A stretch of 64,000 bases of DNA from Parvibaculum sp. GTDB lineage: Bacteria; Pseudomonadota; Alphaproteobacteria; Parvibaculales; Parvibaculaceae. A program made the position numbers and the translations under genes. The stretch covers positions 186,001-250,000 of the forward strand of contig NZ_JAHBYN010000001.1 of assembly GCF_019635935.1 (NCBI RefSeq). Reading direction: 5' to 3'. Shown here piece after piece: positions 13,658 through 30,748 of this stretch (the stretch's first letter is position 1; every line of letters starts with the position of its first letter). A model generated the notes under the pieces. The model was not told where the DNA came from. It did no database searches and saw nothing but the letters and a program-made list of their open reading frames with translations.

Positions 13658-13936
13658 GCGCGGAACTGGAAGAAGGTAGTGGTGCGAAACGACAATCGGA
13701 AAACGGCCTTGCCTGTCGATATCGCCGGGGTCTTCCAGACCGTTCATCCGAATTCCATTGATGAAAGCGAAGAGCCCACAATGCCGGGGTAGTGGCTGCT
13801 TGAGAGACAGGACCCTCAGCCTGCTGCCAATCTTTCAATGAGCCAGAATAATCGGAGGCCCGCGCGAAGTTTGGCGATTCCGTCGGGCCAATTCCTTGTT
13901 TGCCCGCCTTGTAGGCGTTTTTCGGCACCGAGGGGA
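13658..13936. other. Non-coding stretch with possible gene debris
   Basis: Together with the palindrome this is a 325-base gap between the truncated exporter and the universal stress gene. Minus-strand frames give short fragments (one reads FINGIRMNGLEDPGDIDRQG before a stop at the palindrome) that look protein-like but that I cannot assign. No RNA gene or promoter is evident. Confidence 0.4.
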
Positions 13937-14731: not shown

Positions 14732-14878
14732 GGAATTGACTCCTGTGCCAAAGTTTTTCTTGCCCGAAGATTCCCATGTTCCGACACGCATCAGTATGGA
14801 AATCTGTGTAACGGTCCCGCATTCTCGCTTCAGGCTTGGCATGCGTGTGGCCTGTCTCTGATCAGTGGTCGCTCAGCC

Positions 14879-17308
14879 TCATACTTCTTTCCGGTATGCG
14901 AGCAGCCTCAGCGCATTGAACACAACGAGCAGCGTCGATCCCTCATGGACAGCGACAGCGGCACCGATGCCAAGGCCCATGATCGTCAACGGAACTAGCA
15001 GCGCAACCACGCCGAGGCTCACGATCACATTCTGCAGGACCACGGCCCGTGCGGTCCGGCTCAGCCCCACCGCAAAAGGAAGATGAGAGAGATCATCGGC
15101 CATGAGCGCCACGTCCGCTGTCTCCAGGGCAACGTCGGAGCCGGCCGCGCCCATGGCGATGCCGACCGTCGCTGTCGCCATGGCGGGCGCGTCATTGACG
15201 CCATCGCCAACCATGGCGACTTTGCCTTCGGATCGGAGCTTCTTGATCGCCTCGACCTTGTCCTGCGGCATCAGATCGCCCCATGCCTCGTCTATGCCAA
15301 CCTGACCGGCAATGGCCTCGGCAACCTTTTGATGGTCGCCAGATATCATGATCAGCCGCTTGATGCCGAGTTCGTGAAGGCGGGCGAGCGCGATCTTCGC
15401 GGCCTCGCGCGGCGTATCCATCAGCCCGATGGCGCCGATGTCGCGGTCGCCGCGCCGGACCACCATTGTCGTTCGGCCCCCCTCACGCAGCCTCGCGATA
15501 GTCTTCTGCATGGCATCCGACAGTGGCGCGATGCCCTCGGCCCCGAACATTTCCGCCTTGCCGATCAACACAGTTTCGCCACCGACGCGCGCCGACACAC
15601 CACGTCCGGTCAGGCTGTCGAGGCCGTCCGCCTCCGGCACCGGCTTGCCGCCCAGCCGCTCGCGTCCATCCCGCGCAATGGCGCGGGCGAGCGGATGGTC
15701 GCTGAGGCTTTCCACGGCAACCGCGACCGCCAGCAATTCATTTTCGGTCACGCCATGAGCCGGCACGATATCGGTGATCCGCGGGGTTCCGGACGTCAGC
15801 GTGCCGGTCTTGTCGAAGGCAATCGCGGTCAGGGATCCCAGATTTTCCAGCGGAGCGCCGCCCTTGACCAGCACACCGCCGCGCGCGGCCCGCGCGACGC
15901 CGGAGAGAACCGCGCTCGGGGTTGCGATCGCAAGCGCGCAGGGGCTGGCGGCGACCAGAACCGCCATGGCGCGATAAAAGGTGTCGCGGAACGGTTCGTC
16001 GATCACCAGTCCGGCGAACAGTAAAATGACCGCCAACGCCAGTACCACCGGCACGAAGATATGCTCGAATTTGTCGGTGAAGCGCTGCGTCGGCGATTTT
16101 TGGGTCTCGGCCTCGCTGACCATCTTCACGACCTTTGCGAGGGTCGTGTCGGAAGACTTGCGCGTAACTTCGATCTCGATAGCGCCATTGCCGTTGATGG
16201 TGCCCGCGAAGACGCGGTGGGCCGCATTGACCTTGTCGGGATTGGCCCGCGCCGCGTCCGCATCGCTCACCGGCCGCTTGTCCACGGGGATGCTTTCGCC
16301 GGTGACCGGCGCCTGATTGACGCTGCTGACGCCCTTGATCAGGAAACCGTCAGCGGGTAGCCGCAAATCCGGCTTGACGATCACGATGTCGCCGACGGCG
16401 AGATCCTCTACCGGTACCTCTCGCAATTCGCCGTCGCGCCGTACCAGTGCGGTCCTTGGCGCGAGCTTCGCCAGAGCCTCGATTGCCTGCTTCGCGCGTC
16501 CCATGGCGTAGTGCTCAAGGGCATGACCAAGGCTGAACAGGAACAACAGCAGAGCCCCCTCCGCCCAGGCACCAAGGACAGCGGCGCCGGCCGCCGCCAC
16601 CAGCATCAGGGTGTCGATCTCAAACTTCTTCAGGCGCAGGTTCTCTATCGCCTCACGCAAGGTGAAGAGACCGCCAAAGAAATAGGCACCGAGATAACAG
16701 GCGAAGGGTAGCCAGGCCGGGACCGTCAGAAGCTTCCCGATGAGATAGCCCCCGGCGAGCAGAGCACCACAAAGCAAGGAAAAGATCAGCTCGGTGTTCG
16801 CTCCGAATGCGCCGCCTTCGTGATCATGACCGGCATGCTCATCCGCCCGGGAATCCCTTTCCGGCCTTGCGCCGCCGGTTTGCAACTTGTCGAGTTTGCC
16901 CTTGAGTGTCGCCTCGGATGTGGCTGATCTATCGAACTCCACGCGCACGGTGCCGGTGGCGCTCGCTTCAGCCTCTATCACGCCGTCGAGCGTTCTCAGC
17001 CGTTCGGCAATGGACCGCGCTCGCCGCTGGTGCGGAATATCAAGCTGCCAGACCGCGTGCCCATACCGTTCCGAGATCCTGGCGCCCGCGGCGGCGATCA
17101 GGTCGCGGATACGCGGCAGCGGCAGGATGTCAGGATCGTAATGTATGCAAAGCCGCGCCGGTTCGCCGTCCACGCCCGCCACGACATGCGCGTCTTCCAC
17201 TCCTTCCTTCCCCGCAATCTGCTCAATCAGGATCTGGACGCAGGCGTCGGCGGCGGTGTTGACCTCCGGCAACAGGATCGGAATGTCCAGGCGAAGTTTC
17301 TCGGTCAT
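14879..17308 (-). CDS. P1B-4-type heavy-metal ATPase (Co/Zn exporter, SPC motif)
   Basis: An 809-aa inner-membrane pump. The ion-binding motif is SPC (455-457), not CPC, and the last membrane helix carries HEGST (from residue 788); both are signatures of the CoaT/CtpD P1B-4 group, usually Co(II), sometimes Zn(II) or Fe(II). DKTGT is at 499-503, followed by SDHPLA, ISGDH and GDGVNDAPA. The N-terminus has two HMA-like folds (about 7-75 and 85-150) that lack CxxC, then a His patch HAGHDHEGG. The start overlaps the stop of a 37-codon frame by ATGA. Likely detoxifies cobalt or zinc together with the Czc pump upstream. Confidence 0.87.
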   Translation of the reverse strand: MTEKLRLDIPILLPEVNTAADACVQILIEQIAGKEGVEDAHVVAGVDGEPARLCIHYDPDILPLPRIRDLIAAAGARISERYGHAVWQLDIPHQRRARSIAERLRTLDGVIEAEASATGTVRVEFDRSATSEATLKGKLDKLQTGGARPERDSRADEHAGHDHEGGAFGANTELIFSLLCGALLAGGYLIGKLLTVPAWLPFACYLGAYFFGGLFTLREAIENLRLKKFEIDTLMLVAAAGAAVLGAWAEGALLLFLFSLGHALEHYAMGRAKQAIEALAKLAPRTALVRRDGELREVPVEDLAVGDIVIVKPDLRLPADGFLIKGVSSVNQAPVTGESIPVDKRPVSDADAARANPDKVNAAHRVFAGTINGNGAIEIEVTRKSSDTTLAKVVKMVSEAETQKSPTQRFTDKFEHIFVPVVLALAVILLFAGLVIDEPFRDTFYRAMAVLVAASPCALAIATPSAVLSGVARAARGGVLVKGGAPLENLGSLTAIAFDKTGTLTSGTPRITDIVPAHGVTENELLAVAVAVESLSDHPLARAIARDGRERLGGKPVPEADGLDSLTGRGVSARVGGETVLIGKAEMFGAEGIAPLSDAMQKTIARLREGGRTTMVVRRGDRDIGAIGLMDTPREAAKIALARLHELGIKRLIMISGDHQKVAEAIAGQVGIDEAWGDLMPQDKVEAIKKLRSEGKVAMVGDGVNDAPAMATATVGIAMGAAGSDVALETADVALMADDLSHLPFAVGLSRTARAVVLQNVIVSLGVVALLVPLTIMGLGIGAAVAVHEGSTLLVVFNALRLLAYRKEV

Positions 17309-17418
17309 GCTTGCCTATCCTCTTGCCAGCGCGGGTTCGGGTTCTTAGAAGCAGGTCCAATGTGATTCAATCGACCATTGTTGATCCAGACGAGCCAGGC
17401 GATTGATTTTCTTTTCAT
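17305..17418 (-). pseudogene. 37-codon frame, possible IS3-family transposase remnant
   Basis: The frame reads MKRKSIAWLVWINNGRLNHIG then PASKNPNP; the W-NN-RL-IG-P pattern recalls the C-terminal end of IS3-family OrfB transposases (WFNNRRL..IG..P). Its TGA overlaps the ATG of the P1B-4 ATPase (ATGA), so if translated it could couple ribosomes into the pump gene. A GAGG lies 10 bases before its ATG. It may be a leader or only debris; the similarity is short. Confidence 0.35.
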
Positions 17419-17449
17419 TCCGGATCCTCGGAGAAGCGTCGAAAGATGC

Positions 17450-17482
17450 CCCCCGGCCGGGACACGGAAGCCCGGCCGGGGG
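17450..17482 (-). terminator. Strong GC hairpin after czcA
   Basis: A perfect 12-bp stem, CCCCCGGCCGGG (17,450-17,461) and CCCGGCCGGGGG (17,471-17,482), with a 9-base loop lies 28 bases past the czcA stop. A second hairpin GGGTCCG-CA-CGGACCC (17,493-17,508) precedes it. The T-run is weak, so termination of the czcICBA transcript is plausible but not certain. Confidence 0.45.
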
Positions 17483-17509
17483 TGCCGCCATCGGGTCCGC
17501 ACGGACCCG

Positions 17510-20500
17510 TCAGGCTGCTCGTTCTTCTTCGTCCCGCGCATGGGCGAGGCGGTAGATCGCGGGCAGCACGAGCAGCGTGAGGATGGTGGAGGACAGGATG
17601 CCGCCGATCACCACCGTGGCGAGCGGGCGCTGCACCTCCGCGCCCGCGCTTGTCGCCAGCGCCATAGGCACGAAGCCGAGCGAGGCAACGAGCGCCGTCA
17701 TCAGCACCGGGCGGAGCCGCGTCATGGCCCCCTGCCGGATCGCTTCATCGAGGGGAAGACCCCGCGCCCGCAGGTTCTTGATGAAGCTGATGATGACGAG
17801 GCCGTTCAGCACCGCGACGCCCGAGAGCGCGATGAAGCCGACGCCCGCCGAGATCGAGAGCGGCATGCCCCGAAGCGCCAGCGCCGCGAGCCCGCCCGTG
17901 AGCGCGAGCGGTACGCCCGAGAAAACGAGCAGCGCGTCCCTCGCCGTGCCGAGGCTCGCGAAGAGCAAAGCGAAGATCAGCACCAGCGCTGCGGGCACGA
18001 CGATGGAAAGCCGCTTCGCCGCCGAGACGAGCTGCTCGAACTGCCCGCCCCATTCGAACCAGTAGCCGGGCGGCAATTGCACCTGCGCCGCCACGGCAGC
18101 CCGCGCCTCGTCCACGAAGGAGCCGAGGTCGCGCTCGCGGATATTGGCCGTCACCGTGATCCGCCGCTTGCCGTTCTCGCGGCTGATCTGGTTCGGTCCG
18201 GGCGCGAGGGCGATCTCCGCCACCTCGCGGAGCGGTACGACGCGCGGCATGCCTTCGCCGAAGGGTGAATAGGAGGCAGGCGCGAAACGGTCCTCCGCTT
18301 CATGTGCCGGCGGTAGCGGAATCGGCAGTTCCCGCAGGCGGTCCATATCCTGCCGGAGTGTCTCAGGCAGGCGCACGAAAACGGGCGTACGCCAATCTCC
18401 TTCATAAAAGGTACCTGCCCGCGCGCCGCCTATCGCCGCCTGCACGACCGTCTGTATCTCCGCGACGGAGAGCCCGAAGCGGGCCGCCACATCGCGCTTC
18501 ACCTCGATGGAGAGGACGGGAAGCCCCTCCACCTGCTCCACCTGCACGTCGGTCGCGCCTTCGATCCGTTGAACGATAGCGGCCACCTCGTTCGCAGAGG
18601 CGAGGAGCTTGTCCATATCGTCGCCGAATATCTTGATGCCGACATCCGAACGGACGCCCGAGATGAGCTCGTTGAAGCGGAGCTCGATGGGCTGCGAGAC
18701 CTCGTAATTCGCTCCCGGTATGGCGGCGAGCTTCTCGTCTATCTCCTGCAGAAGCTCGGCTTTCCGCTTGCGCGGGTTCGGCCAGGAGGAGCGCGGTTCG
18801 ATCATCACATAGGCGTCCGAGATGCTGGGCGGCATAGGGTCGGTTGCAACTTCCGCCGTGCCCGTCCTTGCGAAGACCTCCCGCACTTCGGGAAGCTCGA
18901 TCAGTGCCCTTTCGACCTGTTTCTGCATCTCCACCGATTGCGTAAGGCTCGTGCCCGGCATGCGGAGCACCTGCACCGCAACGTCGCCCTCGTCGAGCCT
19001 CGGGATGAACTCGGTGCCGAAGCGCGTCGCGCCGAGCGCGGCCACGAGCACGAGCGCCGCCGCCGCGATGGCGATTGTCTTCTGACGGCCAAGCGCGAAG
19101 CGAAGTGCTGGCTGGTAACCCTTCTGCGCCCAGCGCATGATGAGGCTCTCCTTCTCCTCCACATCGCCGCGCACGAAAATGGCGATGGCCGCCGGAACGA
19201 AAGTGACCGCCAGCGCCATTGCCCCGAGAAGCGCGAGGACGACCGTGACCGCCATAGGCGTGAACATTTTTCCTTCCACGCCGGTCAATGTGAGGATCGG
19301 CAGATAGACGACCGTGATGATGAAGGAGCCGAACATGGCCGGCGTTATCACCTCGCGCGTCGCGTCCACCACCACAGCGAAGCGTTCGTCGAGGCCGAGT
19401 GTGCGCCCCAGATGCTTCCGTTCTTCGGAAAGACGTCTCAAGCAATTCTCTGTGATGATGACGGCGCCATCCACGATCAGGCCGAAGTCGATGGCGCCGA
19501 GGCTCATCAGGTTGGCGCTGATGCGGTACTCCACCATGCCCGTCACCGCGATCAGCATGGAAAGCGGAATGACAGCGGCGGTGATGAGCGCCGCCCGGAT
19601 ACTTCGCAACAGCATGAAAAGGACAACGATGACGAGCACCGCGCCTTCCACGAGATTGTTACGGACGGTGGCGATGGTCTTCTGGACGAGATCGGTGCGG
19701 TCGTAGAGCGTTTCGATTGTCACGCCGTCGGGCAGGTTTCGCTCGATCTGCTTCAGCTTGCCGCGAACGGCGCTTGCCACTTCGCGGCTGTTCTCGCCCA
19801 TCAGCATCACAGCGGTGCCGAGAACGGTTTCCTCGCCGTCATGCGTCGCCGCGCCGGTGCGGAGCTCCTTGCCGAAGGTCACTTCCGCGACATCGTGGAT
19901 ATAGATTGGCCTGCCATTATGCGTGCCGAGCAGCACCTCGCCGAACTCCGCCGCATCGCCAAGCTGGCCCGGCAGGCGGATCAGATATTGCTCTCCGTTC
20001 CGCTCGATATAGCCCGCGCCCTGATTGACGTTGTTGTCCTCGAGCGCCTTCGCGACATCGGCGAAGGAGAGATTGAAGGAGGTGAGCCGGTAAGGGTCGG
20101 GCACGACATGGATCTGCCGCTCATAACCGCCGATGGCATTTACCTCGACCACGCCCGGAACGGTGCGCAGTTGCGGACGCACCATCCAGTCATGGATCGC
20201 GCGCAGGTCCGAGAGCGTATAGGGCACGCCTTCAGCATTGCGCGCATCCGGAGCGGCCTCCATGCGGTACATGTAGATTTCGCCGAGGCCGGTCGAAACC
20301 GGGCCCATGGCCGTTTCGACGTCGGGCGGCAACTCGCCGGAAACGGCCTGAATACGTTCGCCAATCAACTGCCGCGCGCGGTAGATGTCCGTGCCGTCCA
20401 CGAAGACGACCGTGACCTGCGACAGGCCGTAGCGCGAAAGCGAGCGCGTGTAGTCGAGGCCGGGCAGGCCGCCCATCGCCGTTTCCAGCGGAAAGGTGAT

Positions 20501-20692
20501 GCGCTGCTCCACCTCGACGGGAGAATAGCCGGGCGCGGAGGTGTTGATCTGCACCTGGACATTGGTGATGTCCGGCACGGCGTCGATCGGCAGGCGCGTG
20601 AAATTATAGGCGCCGAAGCCCGCGACGAAGGCGACCGTCAGCAGCACCAGCCAGCGGTGCCTGACGCAGAAGGAGACGATTGCAGGTATCAT
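17510..20692 (-). CDS. czcA: CzcA-type RND heavy-metal efflux transporter
   Basis: A 1060-aa proton-driven RND pump of the heavy-metal efflux family: membrane segment near 14-30, large periplasmic loops, and the helix-IV motif DFGLIVDGAVIITEN with Asp402, Asp408 and Glu415, the proton-relay residues and spacing of the HME1 (Zn/Co/Cd) group rather than CusA. It forms the inner-membrane part of a tripartite system with the products of the two genes before it. Gap to czcB is 11 bases. Full length, intact. Confidence 0.94.
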   Translation of the reverse strand: MIPAIVSFCVRHRWLVLLTVAFVAGFGAYNFTRLPIDAVPDITNVQVQINTSAPGYSPVEVEQRITFPLETAMGGLPGLDYTRSLSRYGLSQVTVVFVDGTDIYRARQLIGERIQAVSGELPPDVETAMGPVSTGLGEIYMYRMEAAPDARNAEGVPYTLSDLRAIHDWMVRPQLRTVPGVVEVNAIGGYERQIHVVPDPYRLTSFNLSFADVAKALEDNNVNQGAGYIERNGEQYLIRLPGQLGDAAEFGEVLLGTHNGRPIYIHDVAEVTFGKELRTGAATHDGEETVLGTAVMLMGENSREVASAVRGKLKQIERNLPDGVTIETLYDRTDLVQKTIATVRNNLVEGAVLVIVVLFMLLRSIRAALITAAVIPLSMLIAVTGMVEYRISANLMSLGAIDFGLIVDGAVIITENCLRRLSEERKHLGRTLGLDERFAVVVDATREVITPAMFGSFIITVVYLPILTLTGVEGKMFTPMAVTVVLALLGAMALAVTFVPAAIAIFVRGDVEEKESLIMRWAQKGYQPALRFALGRQKTIAIAAAALVLVAALGATRFGTEFIPRLDEGDVAVQVLRMPGTSLTQSVEMQKQVERALIELPEVREVFARTGTAEVATDPMPPSISDAYVMIEPRSSWPNPRKRKAELLQEIDEKLAAIPGANYEVSQPIELRFNELISGVRSDVGIKIFGDDMDKLLASANEVAAIVQRIEGATDVQVEQVEGLPVLSIEVKRDVAARFGLSVAEIQTVVQAAIGGARAGTFYEGDWRTPVFVRLPETLRQDMDRLRELPIPLPPAHEAEDRFAPASYSPFGEGMPRVVPLREVAEIALAPGPNQISRENGKRRITVTANIRERDLGSFVDEARAAVAAQVQLPPGYWFEWGGQFEQLVSAAKRLSIVVPAALVLIFALLFASLGTARDALLVFSGVPLALTGGLAALALRGMPLSISAGVGFIALSGVAVLNGLVIISFIKNLRARGLPLDEAIRQGAMTRLRPVLMTALVASLGFVPMALATSAGAEVQRPLATVVIGGILSSTILTLLVLPAIYRLAHARDEEERAA

Positions 20693-20703
20693 GTTTCATC
20701 TCC

Positions 20704-21810
20704 TCAATGCGAATGCGCGGCGGCGTTCTTGCCCGCCTCGGCCTTGAGGAGGAAGGCATTGCCCGCGACATAGGATGCGCCTGCATCGAGCCCTTCGAGG
20801 ATTTCGATGCGGACGCCGTCGCTCCGGCCGGTCTTCACCGGCGCCCGCTCGAAGGAGCCTTCCTCGCCCGGCACATAGACGAATGCCGCCGCACCGTCAT
20901 GGAGGATCGCCTCGCGCTTCACCGTCACCGGCGCCGCTAAGGGTTCCTGCATCACCGAGGCCGTAACAAAAAGTCCGGGCTGAAGATGGCCCTCCGGGTT
21001 CGCGACCGTCGCGCGGGCGAGTACGCTCTGCGTGTCCTGCGCGGCGATAGGCGACACATAGGAAATCACCGCCTCGACCTCGCCGCCGCCATTCTCCGAT
21101 GGAAAAACGACACGCTGTCCCTCGCGGATGAGGCCGGCATCGTGGCGATGAACCTGAAGATCGAGCCAGACGGTCGAAAGATCGGCGACGACCATCAGCG
21201 GATCGTCCGTTCCCGCGAACTGGCCGGGCACGACATTTCCGAGGATGACGCGCCCGGAAACGGAAGCGATGAGCGGATAGGCGCGCAGGCTCTCGTTGCT
21301 TTCAATGGTCGCCAGAATGTCTCCCCGCTCCACGCGGTCGCCAAGGCGCTTGTTCACACCGATCACGATCCCCGGAAAGCGCGGCACGACATGGACAAGC
21401 CTGTCGAGATCGGGCCTGACGATACCGAAAAGATTGAGCGAGGGGCGGAGCATGCCCGGCCCCGCCTCGGCGATTTCCAGCCGTGCGTTGCCGATCTGCG
21501 CAGGCGTCAGCGTTACATGACCATCTTCATGCTCGTCATGCTCGTCGTCATGGCTGTGCCCGTGGCCGCTCTCGTCATGTCCATCCTCTTCGTCGTGGCC
21601 GTGACCGTCATGGGCGTCCTCGCCATGAGCGTCGTGCTCCTCTTCGCTTTCACTCCCATCACGATGGTCGTGATGTTCCTCCACGGCCTTGTCGCCGCCA
21701 TGGTCATGATCGCGGTCGCCCTGTGCCAGGGCGGGCGATATGGCGAGGGCGACAGCCAGGCCCGAAGCGAGCAACCGGCGCGCCAGGATTTCCGTCTTGA
21801 TCGTTTTCAT
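20704..21810 (-). CDS. czcB: CzcB-type periplasmic adaptor (membrane fusion protein)
   Basis: A 368-aa adaptor linking the RND pump to the outer membrane channel. It has a signal peptide (cleavage near ALAQ, residue 30), then a remarkable His/Asp/Glu-rich segment (about 31-98, with HDHGG, EEHHDHRDG, GHGHDEEDGHDE and GHGHSHDDEHDE) likely to bind Zn/Co/Cd, then the hairpin, lipoyl-like (FPGIVIGVNKRLGDRVERGD, SVSGRVILG) and barrel domains. Its start overlaps the stop of czcC by 4 bases. Confidence 0.92.
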   Translation of the reverse strand: MKTIKTEILARRLLASGLAVALAISPALAQGDRDHDHGGDKAVEEHHDHRDGSESEEEHDAHGEDAHDGHGHDEEDGHDESGHGHSHDDEHDEHEDGHVTLTPAQIGNARLEIAEAGPGMLRPSLNLFGIVRPDLDRLVHVVPRFPGIVIGVNKRLGDRVERGDILATIESNESLRAYPLIASVSGRVILGNVVPGQFAGTDDPLMVVADLSTVWLDLQVHRHDAGLIREGQRVVFPSENGGGEVEAVISYVSPIAAQDTQSVLARATVANPEGHLQPGLFVTASVMQEPLAAPVTVKREAILHDGAAAFVYVPGEEGSFERAPVKTGRSDGVRIEILEGLDAGASYVAGNAFLLKAEAGKNAAAHSH

Positions 21811-23096
21811 TGTGCATCTCCTTCGGCCGCTTCTTCCTTGCCGGAAAGGCCGGTCAGAATTTCGATGGAGGCCAGCGCATTACGGCAGGCGAGAAGGGCC
21901 TCCGTTTCCTGCATCCGGCTGTCGGCGCTGGTCTGCAGCGCATCGAGAAGATCGAGTACGCCAAAACGGCCCGCGAGATAGCCTTCGCGGATTGCGGCGG
22001 ATGTTTTTGCCGATGTGGGGACGACCGATCTGCCAAGCCGCTCCGCTTCACGGCAACGGCTGCTGTAGGTCTGATGCGACTGTTGCAATTCGCGGGCGAG
22101 TTCCACCCTCGTTCGCCGCGCATCGAGATCGGCTTGCACGACGCGGCTCGATGCGGCGTCGATATTGCCCTGATTGCGGTCGAAGACGGAGATAGGAATG
22201 GAGACGGAGAAGAGGAACGCGCTTTCGTCCGTTCCTGCGAAATGGCGGGCGCCTGCGCCCAGCGTCACATCCGGATAGGCATTCGACTTTTCCAGGTCGA
22301 AGGCCGCGCGGCGCACACTCACGGTCTGTTGTCCGCCCAGCACCGCCGGATGGCTGTCGAGCATGGCTTCGAGTTCGTCGAGGCCGGGAAGCGGCGTTGC
22401 CGGAACGGCGAAAGCGCCCTCGGCGCGTAACGGACGATAGGCGCTCTCCGACCAGAGGGCGAGCAGTGTTTGCTGTGCCGTGCGCAACTCGGCCTGTTTC
22501 GTCCCCGCCCTGATCTCGGCGAGATCGAGTGCGAGCAATCCGCGATTGAGATCGGCTTCTGAAGAAGCTCCCCGTTCGAAGCGCTGACGCAGCGCCGGCA
22601 CGAGGCCGCGGACCCGCTCCGCCGCGGCCGAAGTCGTTTCCGCTTCTTGCTGTGCGGCAAGCAATCCGTTGAAGGCATGCGTTACCGCCTCGCGCAGGCG
22701 GCGCTCCACAACATCTCTTTCTGCGGCGGCGACCGCTTCCGAAAGGCGGGAGAGACGCTTCCTGTTTTCGCGCTTGCCGCCCGTTTCGATACGCTGCGTG
22801 AGGCCGAGCGTGACATCCGCCTCCTCCGTGCCGCGATAGAGGCCGGAGCCGAGCACATTCTCGACTTCGAGGCCGAGTTCGGGATTGGGCGGAAGCCCCG
22901 CTTGCCGCGCTTCTGCGGTTCGTTCACCGATTGCCTCGAAAGCGATGCGCGCCTGCGTGTTCTGCGACAGCGCGATGGCGATGGCTTCGTCGAGCGTTAC
23001 CGATGCCGTGTCCGACGCGAACACCGGCATCGCGAGTCCCGCCGACAGAAAAATGCCGGACAGGGCTCTCCGCCAAGGGCGGAATGAACCTTTCAT
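21807..23096 (-). CDS. czcC: CzcC-type outer membrane factor
   Basis: A 429-aa TolC-superfamily protein with a signal peptide (MPVFA region, mature start near residue 28) and two outer-membrane efflux repeats rich in long amphipathic helices (LPPNPELGLEVENVLGSG, LAELRTAQQTLLAL, FRVGVLDLLDALQT-like segment near the end). It provides the exit duct for the CzcCBA pump. First of the three structural genes in transcription order and overlapping czcB. Confidence 0.92.
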   Translation of the reverse strand: MKGSFRPWRRALSGIFLSAGLAMPVFASDTASVTLDEAIAIALSQNTQARIAFEAIGERTAEARQAGLPPNPELGLEVENVLGSGLYRGTEEADVTLGLTQRIETGGKRENRKRLSRLSEAVAAAERDVVERRLREAVTHAFNGLLAAQQEAETTSAAAERVRGLVPALRQRFERGASSEADLNRGLLALDLAEIRAGTKQAELRTAQQTLLALWSESAYRPLRAEGAFAVPATPLPGLDELEAMLDSHPAVLGGQQTVSVRRAAFDLEKSNAYPDVTLGAGARHFAGTDESAFLFSVSIPISVFDRNQGNIDAASSRVVQADLDARRTRVELARELQQSHQTYSSRCREAERLGRSVVPTSAKTSAAIREGYLAGRFGVLDLLDALQTSADSRMQETEALLACRNALASIEILTGLSGKEEAAEGDAQ

Positions 23097-23151
23097 GGAT
23101 CACCTGTAGATAAAAGACATCGGGCGTCCCCGGACGGGAACGCGTTCAGGC

Positions 23152-23469
23152 TCAGGCGATCGCTATTTCTGGAGGGGGACCTTCGGGATAAAGCAGCCGG
23201 CTTGCAGCACTTTCGTCACCGGAAACGGGAACATGGCTCGTCGCGAGCGTCACCAGGAACTCGCTTCGGGGCACAAGCACGACATGCTGGAGAATGTGGC
23301 AGACATCGCAGATCGAGCCGGAAGTGGAATCCGCAGCGCGCTCCGTTCCTGTCGCATGAACGATGGCCTCGTTCGCCTCACCATAGAACGAGTCGGCGGA
23401 TGCGCCAGCGGACAGGCACCCCCACAAAAGGCTGACGACAATGAGCTGGGCGAGGAAACGGGACATCAT
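23152..23469 (-). CDS. Small periplasmic CxxCH protein upstream of czcC (CzcI-like by position)
   Basis: A 105-aa protein with a clear signal peptide (MMSRFLAQLIVVSLLWGCLSAGASA). The mature part holds CDVCH (Cys54, Cys57, His58) with a further His62, which could bind metal or, by motif alone, haem c. In Cupriavidus the czc operon begins with the small periplasmic CzcI, and this gene has the same place, 55 bases before czcC. Sequence similarity to CzcI is not something I can claim, and the function is inferred from context. Confidence 0.6.
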   Translation of the reverse strand: MMSRFLAQLIVVSLLWGCLSAGASADSFYGEANEAIVHATGTERAADSTSGSICDVCHILQHVVLVPRSEFLVTLATSHVPVSGDESAASRLLYPEGPPPEIAIA

Positions 23470-23591
23470 GCGATACTGACCAATTCTCGCGAAATTTCAA
23501 CCCGTTCAGCCGAACGTTGCGAAAAGCCACATATGGAACCCGGGAGCGCGTTATCAACCTGAATGCGTGAAGGACATACCGGTGTGGGAGA

Positions 23592-24002
23592 CTACGAGCC
23601 TGCTGTTGATAGCGACTCGATGATTCTGCAGTCGGCAACTATCCCGCATTCGCACCGATCTATAATCCTGTCGAGTTCACCCTTGAGCGCGATAAGGTCG
23701 CTTATCTTTCTCTCGACCTCGTTTCGACGTTCCCTGGCAACTGCATCGACGGCCGCACAGGACTGGCTGCGGTCGTCGGCGAGCATCAATAGCGTCCTGA
23801 CCTGGTCGAGCGAGAAGCCGAGGTCGCGGGCACGCCTGATGAAGCTCAACCGGTCGAGATGTTCCTGTTCATAGGCACGATAATTGCCGTCGGTGCGCGA
23901 AGGTTCCGGCAAGAGACCGTTCTTCTCATAGAAGCGGATCGTCTCGACTTTGGTGCCCGTCTGCCGCGCCAGATGGCCGATTGTCAGGATTTCCCGGTTC
24001 AT
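23592..24002 (-). CDS. cadR: MerR-family Cd/Zn/Pb-responsive regulator
   Basis: A 136-aa regulator with an N-terminal MerR HTH (LTIGHLARQTGTKVETIRFYEKNGLLPEP), a dimerisation helix, Cys residues at SQSCAAVD and a C-terminal CECGIVADCRIIESL metal loop, the pattern of CadR/ZntR/PbrR regulators. It is divergent from the P1B-2 ATPase gene, and a perfect MerR-type operator lies between them. It probably activates the ATPase gene and its own gene on Cd, Zn or Pb exposure; control of the czc genes is possible but not shown. Confidence 0.88.
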   Translation of the reverse strand: MNREILTIGHLARQTGTKVETIRFYEKNGLLPEPSRTDGNYRAYEQEHLDRLSFIRRARDLGFSLDQVRTLLMLADDRSQSCAAVDAVARERRNEVERKISDLIALKGELDRIIDRCECGIVADCRIIESLSTAGS

Positions 24003-24005
24003 CGC

Positions 24006-24036
24006 TTGACCCTGTAGTTACTACAGGGTCTATCTA
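24006..24036 (+). promoter_or_regulatory. CadR/ZntR-type operator-promoter
   Basis: TTGACC (24,006-24,011) and TATCTA (24,031-24,036) are 19 bp apart. The spacer region contains a perfect dyad ACCCTGTAG-TTA-CTACAGGGT (24,009-24,029), matching known CadR/PbrR/ZntR boxes. It is 32 bases before the ATPase start and begins 4 bases from the regulator start, so one site serves both genes. Confidence 0.9.
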
Positions 24037-24068
24037 GTGCGTCACATCGAGTTTGTCGAGGTGACATC

Positions 24069-26195
24069 ATGGCGGCGACACGCCCCTACAAGCTGTATAT
24101 CGACGGCATGGATTGCGCCGCCTGCGCATTGAAAATCGAAAAGGCGATGTACCACCTGCCCGGCGTGAGCGATGTCGATGTCAGCCATGCAAACGGAACG
24201 CTTGCGCTGCAACTGGATGAGGATCGTACCGCATCGTTCCTCATAGAGGAGAGAGTTCGATCGCTTGGCTACATCCCATTGGCCGGTCATGTGGAGCCGG
24301 AAGCGAGAATACCCCGAAAGCGCGCCAGGGAGCCTTTGTGGAAGGGGCGCAAGAGCCGACTCGTCCTTTTGACCGGCGCCCTCTTCGCACTTGCCTTCGC
24401 GATGGCGCAGATCTTTCCCGAACGGGAACAATGGCTTTATTCGGGCGCCGCGCTTTTAAGCGTCATTCCCTTTGCGAGGCGCGCTGTTGCCGGAGCAATG
24501 TCCGGCTCGCCTTTTACTATCGAGACGCTGATGACGATTGCGGTGCTCGGTGCGGTCGTCATCGGAGAGGCCGAGGAAGCTGCCGTCGTCATTTTCCTGT
24601 TCGCGGTCGGAGAGCTGCTCGAAACCGTCGCGGCCGGCCGGGCGCGAGCGGGCATCAAGGCGCTGATCGACCTCGTGCCGCGCGTGGCGTTTTGCGAGCG
24701 TAACGGCACGGTCGAAAAAGTCGCGGCGGAAGATCTGGTTGTTGGCGATGTCGTCGTAGTGCGGCCCGGCGACCGTGTTCCTTCCGACGGCACGGTGATC
24801 GACGGCATATCGGAGGTCGACGAAGCGCCAGTGACCGGCGAGTCCGTGCAGGCACTCAAGAAAGCAGGTTCGACGGTCTATGCCGGCAGCATCAACGCCA
24901 ATGGCGAGCTGCGTGTCTCGATCGACCGTGTCACGTCCGACAACACGATTACACGCATCATCCACATGGTTGAGAAAGCCCAGGAATCAAAGGCGCCGAC
25001 CGCGCGCCTGATCGACCGCTTCAGCCGGTGGTATACGCCGGGTGCAATGGTTGTGGCGGCTCTGATCGTCATGGTTCCACCACTCGCCTTTGACGGCGAC
25101 TGGATGACGTGGACCTATCGGGGACTTGCCACGCTGCTGATCGCCTGCCCCTGCGCACTCGTCATCTCGACGCCCGCGGCAATCGCCTCGGGCCTTGCCG
25201 CCGGAGCGCGGCGGGGATTGTTGATCAAGGGGGGTGCGGCGCTCGAAACGCTTGGCAAGGTCAGGACCGTTGCTTTCGACAAGACCGGAACGCTGACACG
25301 CGGCTGCCCGCAGGTAACGGATGTCGTGCCGGTCATGGGTAGTGAAGATTCGGTGTTGGCGGTAGCGGCAGCGGTCGAGCGCAACACCAGTCACCCGCTC
25401 GGTCGCGCGATCGTCGAGGTGGCGGTGATGCGCGGGCTGGACATGCCGGCTACCTTCGGCGGCGGCACCGCAACACCTGGCAAGGCAGTGACGGTGCGGC
25501 TAGAAACCGGCTTTGCTTCTGTCGGTTCACCCCGTTATGCTGCGGAGCAGACTGCCATCGCCGCCGAGGTCGCAGAGAAGATCGCGACGCTGGAAAGCGA
25601 GGGCAAGACGGTTGTCGTGCTCCTGTCGGAAAAAGCCGTCGAGGGATTGATTGCACTTCGCGACGAACCGCGTGAAGACGCGATGGAGGGCGTGAAGAGG
25701 CTGACGGAGCGTGGCATCCGTGCCTTGATGCTGACCGGCGACAACCTGCGCACGGCCAACGCCATTGCGGGTCACCTCGGCATGGAGGCGAGTGCCGAGC
25801 TTCTGCCGGACGCCAAGCTCGCCGAAATCAGCCGGCTTAAAGAGGATGGCCCTGTCGTCATGGTGGGAGACGGCATCAATGACGCGCCCGCGCTCGCTGC
25901 GGCCTCGGTCGGCGTTGCCATGGGTGTCGGCACCGATGTCGCGCTGGAGACGGCGGACGCCGCACTCCTGAAAAATCGGGTAACGGGCGTCGCCGATCTC
26001 ATCGACCTGTCGCAGGCGACCCTTGGCAACATCCGGCAGAACATCGCAATCGCGCTGGGATTGAAGGCCGTCTTCCTCGCAACGACTCTTCTCGGCGTCA
26101 CAACGTTGTGGATGGCGATCCTCGCGGATACGGGTGCTACTGTGCTTGTTACAGCCAACGCGCTGCGTCTTCTTGTTCGCGAGCCATCGAAATAG
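24069..26195 (+). CDS. cadA: P1B-2-type Zn/Cd/Pb-exporting ATPase
   Basis: A 708-aa inner-membrane pump. One N-terminal HMA domain carries GMDCAAC (13-19); the transport motif is CPC (360-362, IACPCALVIS), phosphorylation site DKTGT (404-408), then SHPLGRA, MLTGDN and GDGINDAPAL. The last helices contain the Zn-type Lys/Asp environment (ALGLKAVFLATTL, ILADTGATVLVTANALRL) found in ZntA/CadA. Directly controlled by the divergent MerR regulator. Confidence 0.92.
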   Translation: MAATRPYKLYIDGMDCAACALKIEKAMYHLPGVSDVDVSHANGTLALQLDEDRTASFLIEERVRSLGYIPLAGHVEPEARIPRKRAREPLWKGRKSRLVLLTGALFALAFAMAQIFPEREQWLYSGAALLSVIPFARRAVAGAMSGSPFTIETLMTIAVLGAVVIGEAEEAAVVIFLFAVGELLETVAAGRARAGIKALIDLVPRVAFCERNGTVEKVAAEDLVVGDVVVVRPGDRVPSDGTVIDGISEVDEAPVTGESVQALKKAGSTVYAGSINANGELRVSIDRVTSDNTITRIIHMVEKAQESKAPTARLIDRFSRWYTPGAMVVAALIVMVPPLAFDGDWMTWTYRGLATLLIACPCALVISTPAAIASGLAAGARRGLLIKGGAALETLGKVRTVAFDKTGTLTRGCPQVTDVVPVMGSEDSVLAVAAAVERNTSHPLGRAIVEVAVMRGLDMPATFGGGTATPGKAVTVRLETGFASVGSPRYAAEQTAIAAEVAEKIATLESEGKTVVVLLSEKAVEGLIALRDEPREDAMEGVKRLTERGIRALMLTGDNLRTANAIAGHLGMEASAELLPDAKLAEISRLKEDGPVVMVGDGINDAPALAAASVGVAMGVGTDVALETADAALLKNRVTGVADLIDLSQATLGNIRQNIAIALGLKAVFLATTLLGVTTLWMAILADTGATVLVTANALRLLVREPSK

Positions 26196-26264
26196 GTGAG
26201 TTAGGAGCTGTGGAAGCCCAGGCGTCCTGCAAGAGACGACGTGCAACAACAGGAAGACATGAGG

Positions 26265-27404
26265 ATGATACCGGAGGTTGTGCATCCCGATGATGGCCGA
26301 ACGGCGGAGCTTTGGGCGAAGACGTTCGATGTGCTGGTCATCGGTGCCGGGCAGGCGGGCCTCGCCGCGGGGTATCGTCTTGCCGGAACGGGATGCTCCT
26401 TTCTGATTGTAGATCGCCAAGCCCGTATCGGAGACAGCTGGCGCGGACGCTACGATTCACTCACCCTGTTTACGCCACGGGCTTTCAGTATGCTCCCGGG
26501 GCTCTCTCTCGATGGTGCGCCGGATGGCTATCCAACACGCGATGAGTTCGCCGACTATCTTGAGACCTATGCAGATTATTTTGATCTGCCCGTCCTTTCC
26601 GGCAACGGGGTGAAACAACTCCGGTTACGGGCCGGGCGCTTCGAGGCAACGCTCGACGATGGACGGAAAATCGCAGCCAGAGCCGTGATTGTCGCTACGG
26701 GTGCCTTCCAGAAGTCCCGGATTCCGCCGGTTGCCGCCGATTTCGACAACACCGTCAAGCAACTGACACCGGACACCTATCGCAATCCCGGTGATGTTCC
26801 GCGAGGCGCTGTCCTGGTGGCTGGAGACGGAGCGTCGGGGCGCGATATTGCCGCCGAGCTATCGGTGACCCACAATGTCGCGCTTGCAACGGGCCGGAGA
26901 CGCCGGCTGTTTCCCGAACGCATCCTCGGCAAAAGCACATGGTGGTGGTTGAGGATTCTCGGATTGATGAAAGCGAAACCGGGCTCGCTTGCGGGCCGCC
27001 TGATGCGCCGCACCGACCCCTTCCCCGACCGGGGGCGTAGTCTCGACGATTTACGGGTCCTGGGTGTCGCGGTTGTCCCCCGCCTCGTCGGTGCCGATGG
27101 CCGGACCGCATTCTTTGCCGATGGATCGACGCGGGAGTTGAACTGTGTCATCTGGTGTGCCGGCTATCATGGCGACAACGCATGGCTTGATATCCCCGGC
27201 ACGAAGGATCCACACGGCCGCTTCCAGCACGAAGGCGGACGAACCTCCGTCCCCGGTCTTTTTCATCTTGGCTTGCCCTGGCAACGCAACCGTGCCTCTG
27301 CGCTCGTGATGGGAATAGAAGAAGACGCGGCGGAAATCGTCGCATTCGTTCGAGACTATCTGAATGTACCTATGACCCAAACTCAGGTTATTCGACCGGG
27401 TTGA
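26265..27404 (+). CDS. czcO: CzcO-like FAD/NAD(P)-dependent oxidoreductase
   Basis: A 379-aa flavin monooxygenase-like protein. FAD-binding VIGAGQAGLAAGYRL lies near the start, an ATG-like VATGAFQ segment in the middle, and the NAD(P) Rossmann motif VAGDGASGRDIAAEL further on, where GxGxSG appears as GDGASG. Proteins of this family (CzcO) often accompany Czc and arsenic resistance genes; their reaction is unclear. ATG 26,265 has AGGAAG eight bases upstream; GTG 26,241 is an alternative start. It lies 69 bases after cadA and is probably co-transcribed. Confidence 0.78.
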   Translation: MIPEVVHPDDGRTAELWAKTFDVLVIGAGQAGLAAGYRLAGTGCSFLIVDRQARIGDSWRGRYDSLTLFTPRAFSMLPGLSLDGAPDGYPTRDEFADYLETYADYFDLPVLSGNGVKQLRLRAGRFEATLDDGRKIAARAVIVATGAFQKSRIPPVAADFDNTVKQLTPDTYRNPGDVPRGAVLVAGDGASGRDIAAELSVTHNVALATGRRRRLFPERILGKSTWWWLRILGLMKAKPGSLAGRLMRRTDPFPDRGRSLDDLRVLGVAVVPRLVGADGRTAFFADGSTRELNCVIWCAGYHGDNAWLDIPGTKDPHGRFQHEGGRTSVPGLFHLGLPWQRNRASALVMGIEEDAAEIVAFVRDYLNVPMTQTQVIRPG

Positions 27405-27510
27405 GGTGACCTGTTTCTATGTCTTGTGGGTCTTGGGGTGTGGCTTTCCCATAGCAATTGCACGAGCACTCCGAGTCTCTGCGTAAACTTCGGCATCGAT
27501 ACCCGCGCCA

Positions 27511-28119
27511 TCAAATCCCCCTGGCGAGACTGGCGACGGCCTGAGGATCCCGTCCCTCGATCAGCCACTGCCTCGGCGTCATGGGTTCTTCGGATTCGTC
27601 GACGAGATCGGGTTGTTCGCTCTCGAAGAAACCGGCGATCTCGATCGGCAGGGCCGTTTCCCGGATTGCCTTCAGAACGATGGCAAGCCCGGGCAACTCG
27701 CTTTCCCCGGCAAACTGGAATGACGGAATGAGCCACGCGTTCGCTCTTTTGACACCGATCAGCGTCCGCTCAGAGAGGTGCTGGCGCAGCCGGCGGCCGG
27801 AAATACCTAGAACCCTCGCCGCCTGCGCCGGCGACAGCGCTGTTGCGAGGAGAGTGCCCTCGAGAATGGCCGTCCGCACGATCGGACGATAGAACGTCCC
27901 GGAGCGATCGACCGATACACCGACGGATTCGAGAGCTTTCCGTTCGGCATCGGTCAGAGGCTTGTTTTGCTCGCGCCCCGGATCGTATCGCTCCGCTATC
28001 GCCTCTGCGGCATCGGCAAAAGACTCCATCAGAACCCTCCGGATATCCGCGGGAAGCCTGTCCAGCTGCTCAGCCAGTCTGGCAGCGGCCTTTTGTTCGG
28101 TGCTGGATGCCTTTGACAT
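27511..28119 (-). CDS. HTH protein with MbcA/ParS-like C-terminus (possible solitary antitoxin or regulator)
   Basis: A 202-aa protein. Residues about 94-135 (LSPAQAARVLGISGRRLRQHLSERTLIGVK) form an excisionase/MerR-like HTH. The C-terminal end (MTPRQWLIEGRDPQAVASLARG) resembles the toxin-binding tail of Xre/MbcA/ParS antitoxins (tP..WL..G..p..V..LA). No RES-type toxin is next to it. ATG 28,119 has AGGAG eight bases upstream, favouring it over a Met at 28,176. Convergent with the CzcO gene across 106 bases. The role remains uncertain. Confidence 0.5.
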   Translation of the reverse strand: MSKASSTEQKAAARLAEQLDRLPADIRRVLMESFADAAEAIAERYDPGREQNKPLTDAERKALESVGVSVDRSGTFYRPIVRTAILEGTLLATALSPAQAARVLGISGRRLRQHLSERTLIGVKRANAWLIPSFQFAGESELPGLAIVLKAIRETALPIEIAGFFESEQPDLVDESEEPMTPRQWLIEGRDPQAVASLARGI

Positions 28120-28257
28120 GGAAGCGCTCCTGCGGCGCTGGGGAATGACATTGCCGGGTTCTTCATGGCCTGCCATTCGGGTGACGGGATAGCGGCGGCT
28201 TCTGCGCGCTTGCCGTGCCGATTGCTGTTTTACCGGCGTTCTCCGCCTGCTCTGCGC

Positions 28258-28304
28258 TTTAATCTGCGGTTCCGGACATATTTTGTCCGGAACCGCAGAT
28301 TAAA
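28258..28304. repeat. Perfect 47-bp palindrome 2 (right border of the metal cassette)
   Basis: Two perfect 21-base arms (28,258-28,278 and 28,284-28,304) surround TATTT; the right arm begins TGTCCGGAACCGCAGATTAA. It is the intact version of the imperfect palindrome at 13,613-13,657. It lies 12 bases beyond the stop of the minus-strand gene at 28,317, so it could also act as that gene's terminator, though no T-run follows. Confidence 0.85.
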
Positions 28305-28316
28305 TCCCGCCCGGCA

Positions 28317-28664
28317 TCAGGCCTGTATCCATTTCGCCATTGCCGGAGATGGCGATCCGAGCCTGTAGAAGCGGGAGAGAGTTCGGGCCCATCCGAGGTC
28401 GGGGGCGAACACACAGAGGTCCGACGTCATGGCTGTCGTCGCTCCGAGAAGGGGATGACCCGTGACCTTTCCCTGCAGCGCGACCACGCCACGCTGGACG
28501 AATGAATAATCGTCGATGAAGGGAGCGTCCTCGAGGTCTTCGAATGACGGCAGGACGCCGGCTCTCAGCCATTCGAGATCGACGCAGAGCTCTTTCAGCC
28601 GCGCCAGTTCCTCATTCAGGTGGTTCGTTCGCAGAACACCTTCCCGTCCTACATAGATGACCAT
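28317..28664 (-). CDS. Hypothetical protein under a LexA-type box
   Basis: A 115-aa soluble protein that I do not recognise. It begins MVIYVGREGVLRTNHLNEEL, continues with a Leu/acid-rich helix (LARLKELCVDLEWLRAGVLPSFEDLEDAPFIDDY) and ends with a hydrophobic half (ALQGKVTGHPLLGATTAMTSDLCV...). A strong AAGGAGG stands 6 bases before ATG 28,664. A GAAC-N7-GAAC LexA box lies 45 bases upstream, so SOS induction is likely. Confidence 0.6.
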   Translation of the reverse strand: MVIYVGREGVLRTNHLNEELARLKELCVDLEWLRAGVLPSFEDLEDAPFIDDYSFVQRGVVALQGKVTGHPLLGATTAMTSDLCVFAPDLGWARTLSRFYRLGSPSPAMAKWIQA

Positions 28665-29012
28665 GTCCGTCCTCCTTGTTGATCGGAGGCAGGCTAAGGG
28701 CACCATTAGAACATAACAAGAACAAAAACATGTGCGATATCCCGAGTCAAGAAGCTTCTTCGATGGAAACTCTAAGGATCGCGCCGCTTCCCCAGATGGC
28801 GAGGCAGGGAATTTCTTGTCGAGCGCGAGGCTCGGGAGCATCTCTCCGGCAACCAACCCGTCACGGAAACCCGGCCCGCACTGCAACGAAGTGCGGGCCA
28901 AGGAGAGAAGTCTCCCCCAGCGTGAGCATGAACGAGTGGGCGTCCCGTCTTTCTGGGGAAACCTTGATGGTCTAAGCGACGATGACGGATTCTCTATCCG
29001 ATCCGGTGCTGC
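28665..29012. other. Intergenic stretch with promoter, LexA box and two hairpins
   Basis: This 348-base gap holds the promoter of the gene at 28,317. Further right, two adjacent hairpins occur: GGCCCGCAC-9 bases-GTGCGGGCC (28,873-28,899) and GGAGA-GAAG-TCTCC (28,902-28,915). They lie about 100-140 bases past the toxin stop (29,013) in its direction of transcription and could form its terminator or a small structured RNA. No convincing coding frame is seen. Confidence 0.4.
28709..28723 (-). promoter_or_regulatory. Alphaproteobacterial LexA (SOS) box
   Basis: On the minus strand the site reads GTTCTTGTTATGTTC, an exact GTTC-N7-GTTC, the established LexA operator of alphaproteobacteria. It overlaps the likely promoter of the hypothetical gene starting at 28,664. 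Confidence 0.7.
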
Positions 29013-29429
29013 TCAATCCTTGGGCAAGGCGTAGCGCAGCACCCGAAGCTCAATCCCGTCCTCCAGAAAGATTTCAAGAACCTGGTTGATGAGATCATCG
29101 TCGGCACTGAGTTCGACCAGCGCCTGCTCGAACAGCTCGATGTGCATGTCGAGATTCATGCTGGGTGGGCCGTTGAGACAGATCAACCCGGCATGGATGG
29201 CGACGTCGGCATACTGGCCCTTGGTGCCTGGCTTATCTTTCGGACCCCGGAAATCCACCGAATTCCTGGTGACGAACGTCCAGTCTCCGCCGAGAATGAT
29301 CGGCTTCAGCTCCCAGTCTTTCAGGCCGGCGAGCTTCATCCAGACAACGTGGCTGGTCTCGTTATATCCTTTTTTCAATGCCAGCTTCGCCAGTTCGGGA
29401 CTTAGGCACTCGTCGATCAGAAACTTCAT
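29013..29429 (-). CDS. DUF5615-type PIN-like toxin
   Basis: A 138-aa protein starting MKFLIDECLSPELAKLALKKGYNETSHVVW, the classical DUF5615/Mut7-C-like PIN fold opening with the acidic FLIDECL. A second acidic site is VTRNSVDFRG. Such proteins are the toxin, probably an RNase, of toxin-antitoxin pairs whose antitoxin has a DUF433 domain, which is exactly the preceding gene. The start overlaps the antitoxin stop by ATGA. The C-terminal extension (about 95-138, ELFEQALVELSADDDLINQVLEI) is acidic. Confidence 0.75.
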   Translation of the reverse strand: MKFLIDECLSPELAKLALKKGYNETSHVVWMKLAGLKDWELKPIILGGDWTFVTRNSVDFRGPKDKPGTKGQYADVAIHAGLICLNGPPSMNLDMHIELFEQALVELSADDDLINQVLEIFLEDGIELRVLRYALPKD

Positions 29430-30079
29430 CCCGCCTTCCTGGCTCGAGGAATGCGGCGATCCGTGATAATGACCGAGCCTTCGCAAAGATCGGCGGGAGC
29501 GCGTGGGCGACCGCGCAGCGGGTTTGCCTCCGCGTAGATTGTGGCAAGCCTGACTTTTTCGGTATCTAGGCTGGGCCAGGTCGCGAGGATGCGCTCCGTC
29601 GAATGGCCGGCGGCTACGGATGCCGCGACATCATAGACCGGAACACGGGTGCCCCGAATGACGGGTGTGCCGCCGAGAATGTCGGGTGAGGTCGTGACCA
29701 TCTCCCGCGCGGTGGCGAGATCGTCCAGCCGCTCGCTCGCGCCCTTCATGAAGGGCAGCAGGTCGATGGTCAGGAAATCGTCGCGGACGGTCCAATCCTC
29801 ACGCAACAGCGCAGCCCAAGGCAGGGCGCGGGACCGCGCAAGCCGAGGCTCTGCGGTCCTGATGGCCGACAGGCGCTCTTCCGAGGTCAGGCGCCGGGCG
29901 CTCGCGAAATAGAAGGTGATGAGCGAACAGGCGCCGGCCAGGACGTAACGGCCATTGTCGAACGAGACGAAGGCGTCCGGCAGGATGTGTTCGTCGAGAG
30001 CACGATTGACGTCGCGCAGGCTCACGCGCGAGACAACGGCGACCTCGCTGACCTTCAGCATTTCCGCGACTGCGGGCAT
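29426..30079 (-). CDS. DUF433-domain antitoxin
   Basis: A 217-aa protein, longer than a minimal DUF433 antitoxin. The N-terminal 80 residues (VSRVSLRDVNRALDEHILPDAFV) resemble a DNA-binding or dimerisation module. The C-terminal DUF433 domain is clear: SPDILGGTPVIRGTRVPVYDVAASVAAGHSTERILATWPSL, abridged here to its conserved parts. A strong AGGAGG precedes the ATG, and a dyad overlaps the -10 box, suggesting autorepression. Likely stabilises the transposon in its host. Confidence 0.77.
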   Translation of the reverse strand: MPAVAEMLKVSEVAVVSRVSLRDVNRALDEHILPDAFVSFDNGRYVLAGACSLITFYFASARRLTSEERLSAIRTAEPRLARSRALPWAALLREDWTVRDDFLTIDLLPFMKGASERLDDLATAREMVTTSPDILGGTPVIRGTRVPVYDVAASVAAGHSTERILATWPSLDTEKVRLATIYAEANPLRGRPRAPADLCEGSVIITDRRIPRARKAG

Positions 30080-30098
30080 GGGAACCTCCTGATTAAAT

Positions 30099-30142
30099 AT
30101 TCCGACGCATCGGAATGTATATCAGAGAGTCCGAAATTTCAA
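30099..30142 (-). promoter_or_regulatory. Promoter and probable autoregulatory operator of the toxin-antitoxin pair
   Basis: On the minus strand TTGAAA (30,137-30,142) and TACATT (30,114-30,119) are 17 bp apart. A dyad ATTCCGA-CGCA-TCGGAAT (30,099-30,116) overlaps the -10 box, the usual place for a repressing antitoxin. Binding by the DUF433 protein is inferred. Confidence 0.6.
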
Positions 30143-30713
30143 TCCCTAATCCGGGCATTGTGAGACGAGATGACGAGCTGGCCCGACATCACGTCGGCGA
30201 GCATGCGGGCGAACGCCGCCGGTCTCCCCGGCAAGGGTATCACCGCCTTAACCGGGACAGGTATATACGTGGGAGCAAGACGATCCTGATTATCAAGAAA
30301 AACATGTAATATATTATATAATTGTCGTTTTGTGGCGGGGGTTGCAAATACTACGCTGCGGCACGAAACAATCCGCTACAGCTCTCTTGGGCAAGCTGGT
30401 CGAGTACTGGCCGGCAGGTTAAGAGGAGCCACAAGTTGAGACGGTTGCCTCCACCGTAACCAGATCACACAACAAAAACCCCGCAAAACCAATCGGTTAT
30501 CGGGGTTTTGTTTTGCATGCACTGTCCCACTTCAACAAAATCAACCGCCTTGCAAGCGGAGGTTCAAATCGGATTTCTGAAATCCCGCAACCAGTTGTGA
30601 AACGTAGCGGTGTGCAGATAAGCACCCTGCAGAGGGCAGAAAGGGGACGCTGGCGTTAGAAGGCTACGACAATTCGGGGACCAAAGGGGCTGGGGAACCG
30701 GCCTCACAGCCTT
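30143..30713. other. Non-coding right end of the transposon
   Basis: No convincing gene is present in the 776 bases between the antitoxin (ends 30,079) and the DUF2852 gene (starts 30,856). The part inside the element contains an AT-rich patch (TGTAATATATTATATAATTG near 30,305-30,325), a terminator-like hairpin (30,475-30,514), a short stretch recalling tRNA (CCGCCTTGCAAGCGG then GGTTCAAATC, 30,549-30,580) that does not fold into a full tRNA, and an AGGGGCTGG (30,685-30,693) repeating the terminal sequence at 30,728-30,736. Confidence 0.45.
30475..30514. terminator. Bidirectional terminator near the right end
   Basis: Stem AAAACCCCG / CGGGGTTTT (30,475-30,483 and 30,501-30,509) encloses a smaller hairpin AACC-AATC-GGTT. 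TTTTGTTTT follows on the plus strand and TTTTTGTTG on the minus strand. It would shield the cargo from outside transcription, like the hairpin inside the left end. Confidence 0.65.
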
Positions 30714-30734
30714 TCAACATTTATCATAGGGGCT
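30714..30734 (-). repeat. Right terminal inverted repeat (IRR)
   Basis: On the minus strand it begins AGCCCCTATGATAAATGTTG and matches the left end at 19 of 21 positions. It abuts the direct repeat directly. Confidence 0.88.
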
Positions 30735-30748
30735 GGCTCGAAAGGGCC
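30735..30748. repeat. Right copy of the direct repeat flanking the transposon
   Basis: GGCTCGAAAGGGCC, identical to 11,178-11,191. It is followed by GCCTTTTCTTTTT, the right arm and T-tract of the original alcohol dehydrogenase terminator. With the element end (GGGGCTGGC) this copy can still form a weaker stem with one bulged base. Confidence 0.85.

Follow-up and report, generated by a model that had tools for sequence, protein, structure and literature searches.

A putative LexA-controlled DUF6634 gene carried by mobile elements of Parvibaculum

The DUF6634 gene and its carrier transposon

The window, i.e. the whole 64-kb stretch of DNA analysed here, belongs to a Parvibaculum genome, as judged from a near-identical named relative. 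It contains a 19.5-kb transposon with inverted ends and a 10-bp target duplication, and inside the transposon a gene for a 115-residue protein, preceded by a ribosome-binding site and a GTTC-N7-GTTC box (Table 1). Gene, ribosome-binding site, box and location in a transposon had all been noted in the preliminary description and were found again. Only the spacing had to be corrected: the box, placed there 45 bases before the ribosome-binding site, in fact leaves about 31 nt to that site and 44 nt to the ATG, which the site itself precedes by about 7 nt.

Table 1. Coordinates of the transposon, the DUF6634 gene and its promoter elements in the window
Feature	Position	Strand	Remarks
Transposon carrying DUF6634	11189..30737		ends CCAGCCCCTA...TAGGGGCTGG; 10-bp duplication CTCGAAAGGG
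Probable transposase, 594 aa	11270..13054	plus	IS1/IS1595-type zinc ribbon only
DUF6634 (PF20339) gene	28317..28664	minus	ATG at 28664, stop 28319-28317; 115 aa + stop
Ribosome-binding site AAGGAGG	28671..28677	minus	from the sequence; A/GAGGAGG kept in homologues
Putative -10, TAGCCT	28691..28696	minus	TAGYCT in homologues; 5/6 columns invariant in 7 distinct loci
LexA operator (predicted) GTTCTTGTTATGTTC	28709..28723	minus	GTTC-N7-GTTC; identical in 8/8 intact genus copies
Putative -35, TTGTTA	28714..28719	minus	within the LexA box; invariant; upstream of TAGYCT by 17 nt in every distinct locus
Second conserved cis element GACTCGGGATATCG	28735..28748	minus	14/14 columns invariant; about position -60

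The cargo of the transposon includes Cd/Zn P-type ATPases, CzcCBA, a MerR-type regulator and a toxin-antitoxin pair (DUF433/DUF5615). The probable transposase matched NCBIfam NF050000 with an E value of 2.7e-05, under the cut-off of that family, and had no match in Pfam. Genome G026 has the same transposon (99.8-99.97% identity) at another site, flanked by the duplication ACCCAGGAGG, and G013 has a copy truncated on the left. Because the G026 copy is near-identical with a different duplication, and a truncated copy exists in G013, the sequences indicate that the transposon has moved recently. In the window it is inserted into a terminator hairpin (AAAAGGCGG-CTCGAAAGGG-CCGCCTTTT), and the site in G026 is likewise a small hairpin (L045, L054); the transposon may target terminators.

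An inverted 44-nt pair (13612-13655 / 28261-28304) was considered for the ends of the transposon and rejected, as the homology with G026 and G013 passes 28304 to about 30737 and reaches left to 11188. A perfect long palindrome (TTTAATCTGCGGTTCCGGACA...) lies at 28258-28304, upstream of an HTH gene (27514-28176), and an imperfect copy of it at 13612-13658 adjoins a fragment of a homologue of the same gene. This arrangement makes the palindrome look like an autoregulatory operator.

The preliminary description had called the product of the small gene a protein of unknown function. This still holds for the function, but the family exists: Pfam assigns the protein to DUF6634 (PF20339) with an E value of 4.4e-13 and 49.8 bits against a cut-off of 27. 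The C-terminal RTxSRxYRLG-type signature is present, with R94, T95, R101, L102 and G103 invariant in 15 aligned members. Compared with six distinct homologues, the window gene gave dN/dS values of 0.08-0.21, with dS frequently above 1, and is therefore an old protein-coding gene under purifying selection. The best AlphaFold2 model, computed on a 13-row alignment, had a mean pLDDT of 91.6 and showed a helix leading into a compact beta-rich domain; since the four remaining models were much lower in confidence (pLDDT 58-74), this predicted fold is probable, not certain.

No match to the protein was found in NCBIfam, PADLOC or PHROGs, no solved relative by sequence in the PDB, no record in an annotated phage collection, and no paper naming DUF6634 in a literature search. 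A fold search of the PDB with the model returned nothing significant (best E 0.07, the RFTS domain of DNMT1). In BFVD the best matches were small unnamed or uncharacterised phage proteins (top E 1e-4), which, as far as a model can tell, suggests a common small domain and gives no indication of function. Six relatives were detected in viral contigs.

Operator and promoter across the genus

Taken alone, the box of the window gene is not beyond chance. GTTC-N7-GTTC occurs four times in the window against 2.07 expected, a number reached by 18% of shuffles; in the whole genome it occurs 106 times, the reversed pattern 64 times. Comparison within the genus, however, lifts the box far beyond chance. 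The exact 15-mer GTTCTTGTTATGTTC was searched in 27 Parvibaculum genomes, with the reversed sequence as control; it was found 27 times, the control not once. Sixteen of the sites belong to PA0069-type radical SAM (splB-like) genes, eight to DUF6634, one each to imuA and ssb, and one is unassigned. All eight intact DUF6634 genes carry the 15-mer, including a second one in the window genome, whereas both degenerate copies with stop codons (G025 and G034) lack it. Thus, an absence of the box from all homologous loci, an outcome considered in the preliminary description, did not occur. Synonymous sites between the DUF6634 copies are nearly saturated, yet the box and the upstream 14-mer GACTCGGGATATCG are identical.

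GTTC-N7-GTTC is the LexA motif of the class Alphaproteobacteria (PMC8565304), and among the LexA targets predicted for this class is splB (PMC3323433). The PA0069-type proteins fall in the splB-like group, and from this family resemblance we infer that the PA0069 gene is the splB of that study. The window genome encodes LexA (equivalog TIGR00498, E 3.6e-49) with GTTCTAGTTTGGTTC upstream of lexA, and GTTC-N7-GTTC precedes its lexA, ssb, imuA and PA0069 genes. In genome G030, one exact GTTCTTGTTATGTTC around L165 1501-1515 lies beside no tested SOS gene and is possibly another LexA target.

In the alignment of seven distinct DUF6634 promoters conservation is concentrated in three blocks: the box (15/15 columns invariant), the -10 (5/6) and GACTCGGGATATCG (14/14). 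Only three columns are kept in the spacer of exactly 11 nt between GACTCGGGATATCG and the downstream box, one in the 12 nt from box to -10, and one in the 53 bases upstream of GACTCGGGATATCG. Because the putative -35, which lies inside the box, is exactly 17 nt from TAGYCT, LexA is predicted to occlude the -35. A divergent frame (MCDIPSQ...) running across the promoter was dropped, as conservation is confined to the motif.

The 14-mer GACTCGGGATATCG occurs eight times in the 27 genomes, always before DUF6634 and never elsewhere in the genus. With GACTC it includes a CcrM-type GANTC site; an action of CcrM or GcrA at this site is only an idea. Since the homology between loci ends at this 14-mer, it could also be a recombination border instead of a regulatory site. 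When the two-part promoter (14-mer and box) was searched in a sample of the class, the only exact matches were the two of the window genome, all others having two mismatches, as the control had; it was absent from the viral contigs.

DUF6634 neighbourhoods and the readings they favour

On alphaproteobacterial plasmids and chromosomes outside Parvibaculum, DUF6634 usually stands with AAA+ ATPases (FtsH-, Lon- or IetA-like) and calcineurin-like phosphoesterases, one or both of which lie near most of these loci. The alternative that survives best reads DUF6634 as a repair or defence co-factor of such operons, LexA-controlled in some lineages, with the solo Parvibaculum gene as a derived form using an AAA+ protein of the host. 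It is favoured by fusions of DUF6634 to a calcineurin-like phosphoesterase (Cereibacter; L037 4528-6345) and a ParA-like ATPase domain (G422; L084 8457-9497), by a nearby Y-family polymerase on a Rhizobium plasmid, and by a UvrD-like helicase that in G375 and G428 is separated from the divergent DUF6634-AAA genes by the LexA box region. A tblastn scan, on the other hand, found no AAA+ or phosphoesterase genes beside the Parvibaculum copies, and no family of PADLOC-DB matched the protein at E 0.001, which argues against membership in known anti-phage defence. We regard this alternative as a real possibility with somewhat less than even prospects. The helicase / DUF6634-AAA ATPase intergenic region (boxes at L053 10535-10631, where G375 has two in tandem, and at L082 10516-10530) belongs to an alphaproteobacterial family and marks what may be an uncharacterised SOS locus for repair or defence.

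Outside the genus the exact box was found within 300 bp upstream of 5 of 43 DUF6634 genes, against about 0.6 expected, and in an independent set of 2 of 15 genes, both doubtful with GC-rich cores near -290. The independent set rules out a general rule that DUF6634 is an SOS gene. SOS control of the homologues is therefore predicted for all intact Parvibaculum copies but does not extend to the family: the counts indicate a trait of some DUF6634 lineages that became fixed in Parvibaculum. Since most DUF6634 genes outside the genus have no box, SOS control does not appear intrinsic to the family.

Within the genus homologues were found with mobile elements, among them the 19.5-kb transposon and TnsABC-TniQ modules. 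In three Parvibaculum loci (L042, L046, L047) DUF6634 adjoins, in convergent orientation, the tniQ gene of a TnsA-TnsB-TnsC-TniQ module, and the same holds for contig L073. Four genomes have a close TniQ homologue, and every one of them carries intact DUF6634, against 2 of the 23 other genomes of the genus; in G013, TniQ is about 21 kb from a second DUF6634. On a Bosea plasmid, too, DUF6634 lies near TnsA/TnsB. These associations speak for a second alternative, in which release of LexA on damage would let DUF6634 modulate TnsC or TniQ, so that the element moves or is held back, the window copy being a captured orphan. Adjacency to tns or tniQ is absent, however, for the window element, the transposon copy in G013, G026 and G028, and the family at large occurs without tns genes. 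Furthermore, Tn7 and I-F3 CAST were reported not to respond to SOS (PMC12452197). The tns genes of the Parvibaculum loci have no such LexA box of their own. Because the window copy is not beside tns genes, Tn7-like transposition cannot be the only role of DUF6634, and we consider this alternative rather unlikely.

A SIR2-pAgo-type (pAgo-associated) protein (L046 4447-6345) and Mza-like defence genes accompanied by a cytosine methylase (L047 198-9094) adjoin TnsABC-TniQ modules. Contig L073, which holds a Parvibaculum-type TnsABC-TniQ-DUF6634 module, is binned as Nitrospira, probably by a binning error. A protein of about 800 residues recurs in DUF6634-bearing Parvibaculum islands (L048 10798-13242, L047 16569-18965, L044 6942-9386); it had no Pfam, NCBIfam or significant PHROGs match, and by eye it looks like a tyrosine recombinase (R...HxxR...Y).

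Caulobacter has SOS-induced checkpoint proteins, which provide a model for a third alternative, an SOS-induced inhibitor of growth or division. By this analogy the small size of DUF6634, its presumed SOS control and its position beside toxin-antitoxin genes in several loci would fit, whereas the predicted compact soluble beta-rich fold, the lack of an evident hydrophobic, membrane-helix-like segment in the sequence, and the usual location elsewhere in operons with ATPases, atypical of a lone toxin, make it improbable. That the box is a fortuitous match and DUF6634 not SOS-regulated is very hard to maintain: GTTC-N7-GTTC is frequent by chance, but the exact 15-mer recurs in all eight copies in spite of their divergence and is common to the splB-like, imuA and ssb promoters, with nothing in the reversed control.

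Interpretation and comparison with known systems

Taking these observations together, we favour, with a probability of about 0.72, a reading in which DUF6634 is an accessory gene of mobile elements that LexA represses and DNA damage induces. The proposal that a mobile element carries a small gene under LexA control thus finds comparative support. Its parts differ in strength. Comparison between genomes establishes, on the level of DNA and protein sequence, the DUF6634 gene, a predicted operator over its own -35, the promoter shared by the intact genus copies and the residence in transposons. LexA control of the Parvibaculum genes is, by the same evidence, almost certain, and DUF6634 is very probably a normal part of mobile-element modules in this genus. 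The activity of the protein we infer; that it is an adaptor for AAA+ machinery is a tentative guess from neighbours outside the genus and the least certain part.

In the favoured reading, host LexA would keep DUF6634 off until, upon DNA damage, RecA* triggers the self-cleavage of LexA. The promoter TTGTTA-N17-TAGYCT would then open, with a second regulator at GACTCGGGATATCG perhaps assisting, and the soluble protein of 13 kDa would be produced. With an AAA+ machine as partner (Lon/FtsH/IetA-like elsewhere, conceivably TnsC in Tn7-like elements), it may serve as a small adaptor or targeting subunit and could thereby adjust repair, defence or the mobility of the element once the host genome is broken.

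Parvibaculum mobile elements probably sense DNA damage of their host. A bolder version, which we think doubtful at best, is that they share a dedicated damage-sensing unit, in which the LexA operator and GACTCGGGATATCG drive DUF6634 acting on AAA+ machinery (TnsC, or Lon/FtsH/IetA-like elsewhere). If true, Tn7-like transposons would have an SOS input, which would contradict the present picture of a group reported until now as blind to SOS. The favoured reading would place an unstudied Pfam family in a regulatory context with a testable role, and would link host DNA damage to transposons with metal-resistance and phage-defence genes; the invariance of the 14-mer points to a second regulator.

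Compared with other members of PF20339, the window protein scores above the curated cut-off and carries the GWARTxSRxYRLG signature. The other members examined are mostly in AAA+/phosphoesterase operons, whereas the Parvibaculum branch is solo and predicted to be LexA-controlled. Three Parvibaculum loci resemble Tn7-like/TniQ transposons in having TnsA, TnsB-like, TniB/TnsC-like and TniQ genes, here beside DUF6634; Tn7 and I-F3 CAST differ in having no DUF6634 gene in their known core and in the reported lack of an SOS response (PMC12452197). With SOS-controlled mobility genes such as the integron integrase and SXT, as cited in PMC12452197, DUF6634 would share the control of a mobile-element gene by host LexA. 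Those genes encode a recombinase or its activator, whereas DUF6634 is a small non-recombinase, and the transposase genes of the Parvibaculum elements have no box. Another parallel is the alphaproteobacterial LexA regulon (lexA, ssb, imuA, splB); the DUF6634 operator is identical to the PA0069/splB-like one of the same genus. DUF6634 differs from these targets in its unknown function, its location on a mobile element and the additional invariant 14-mer upstream.
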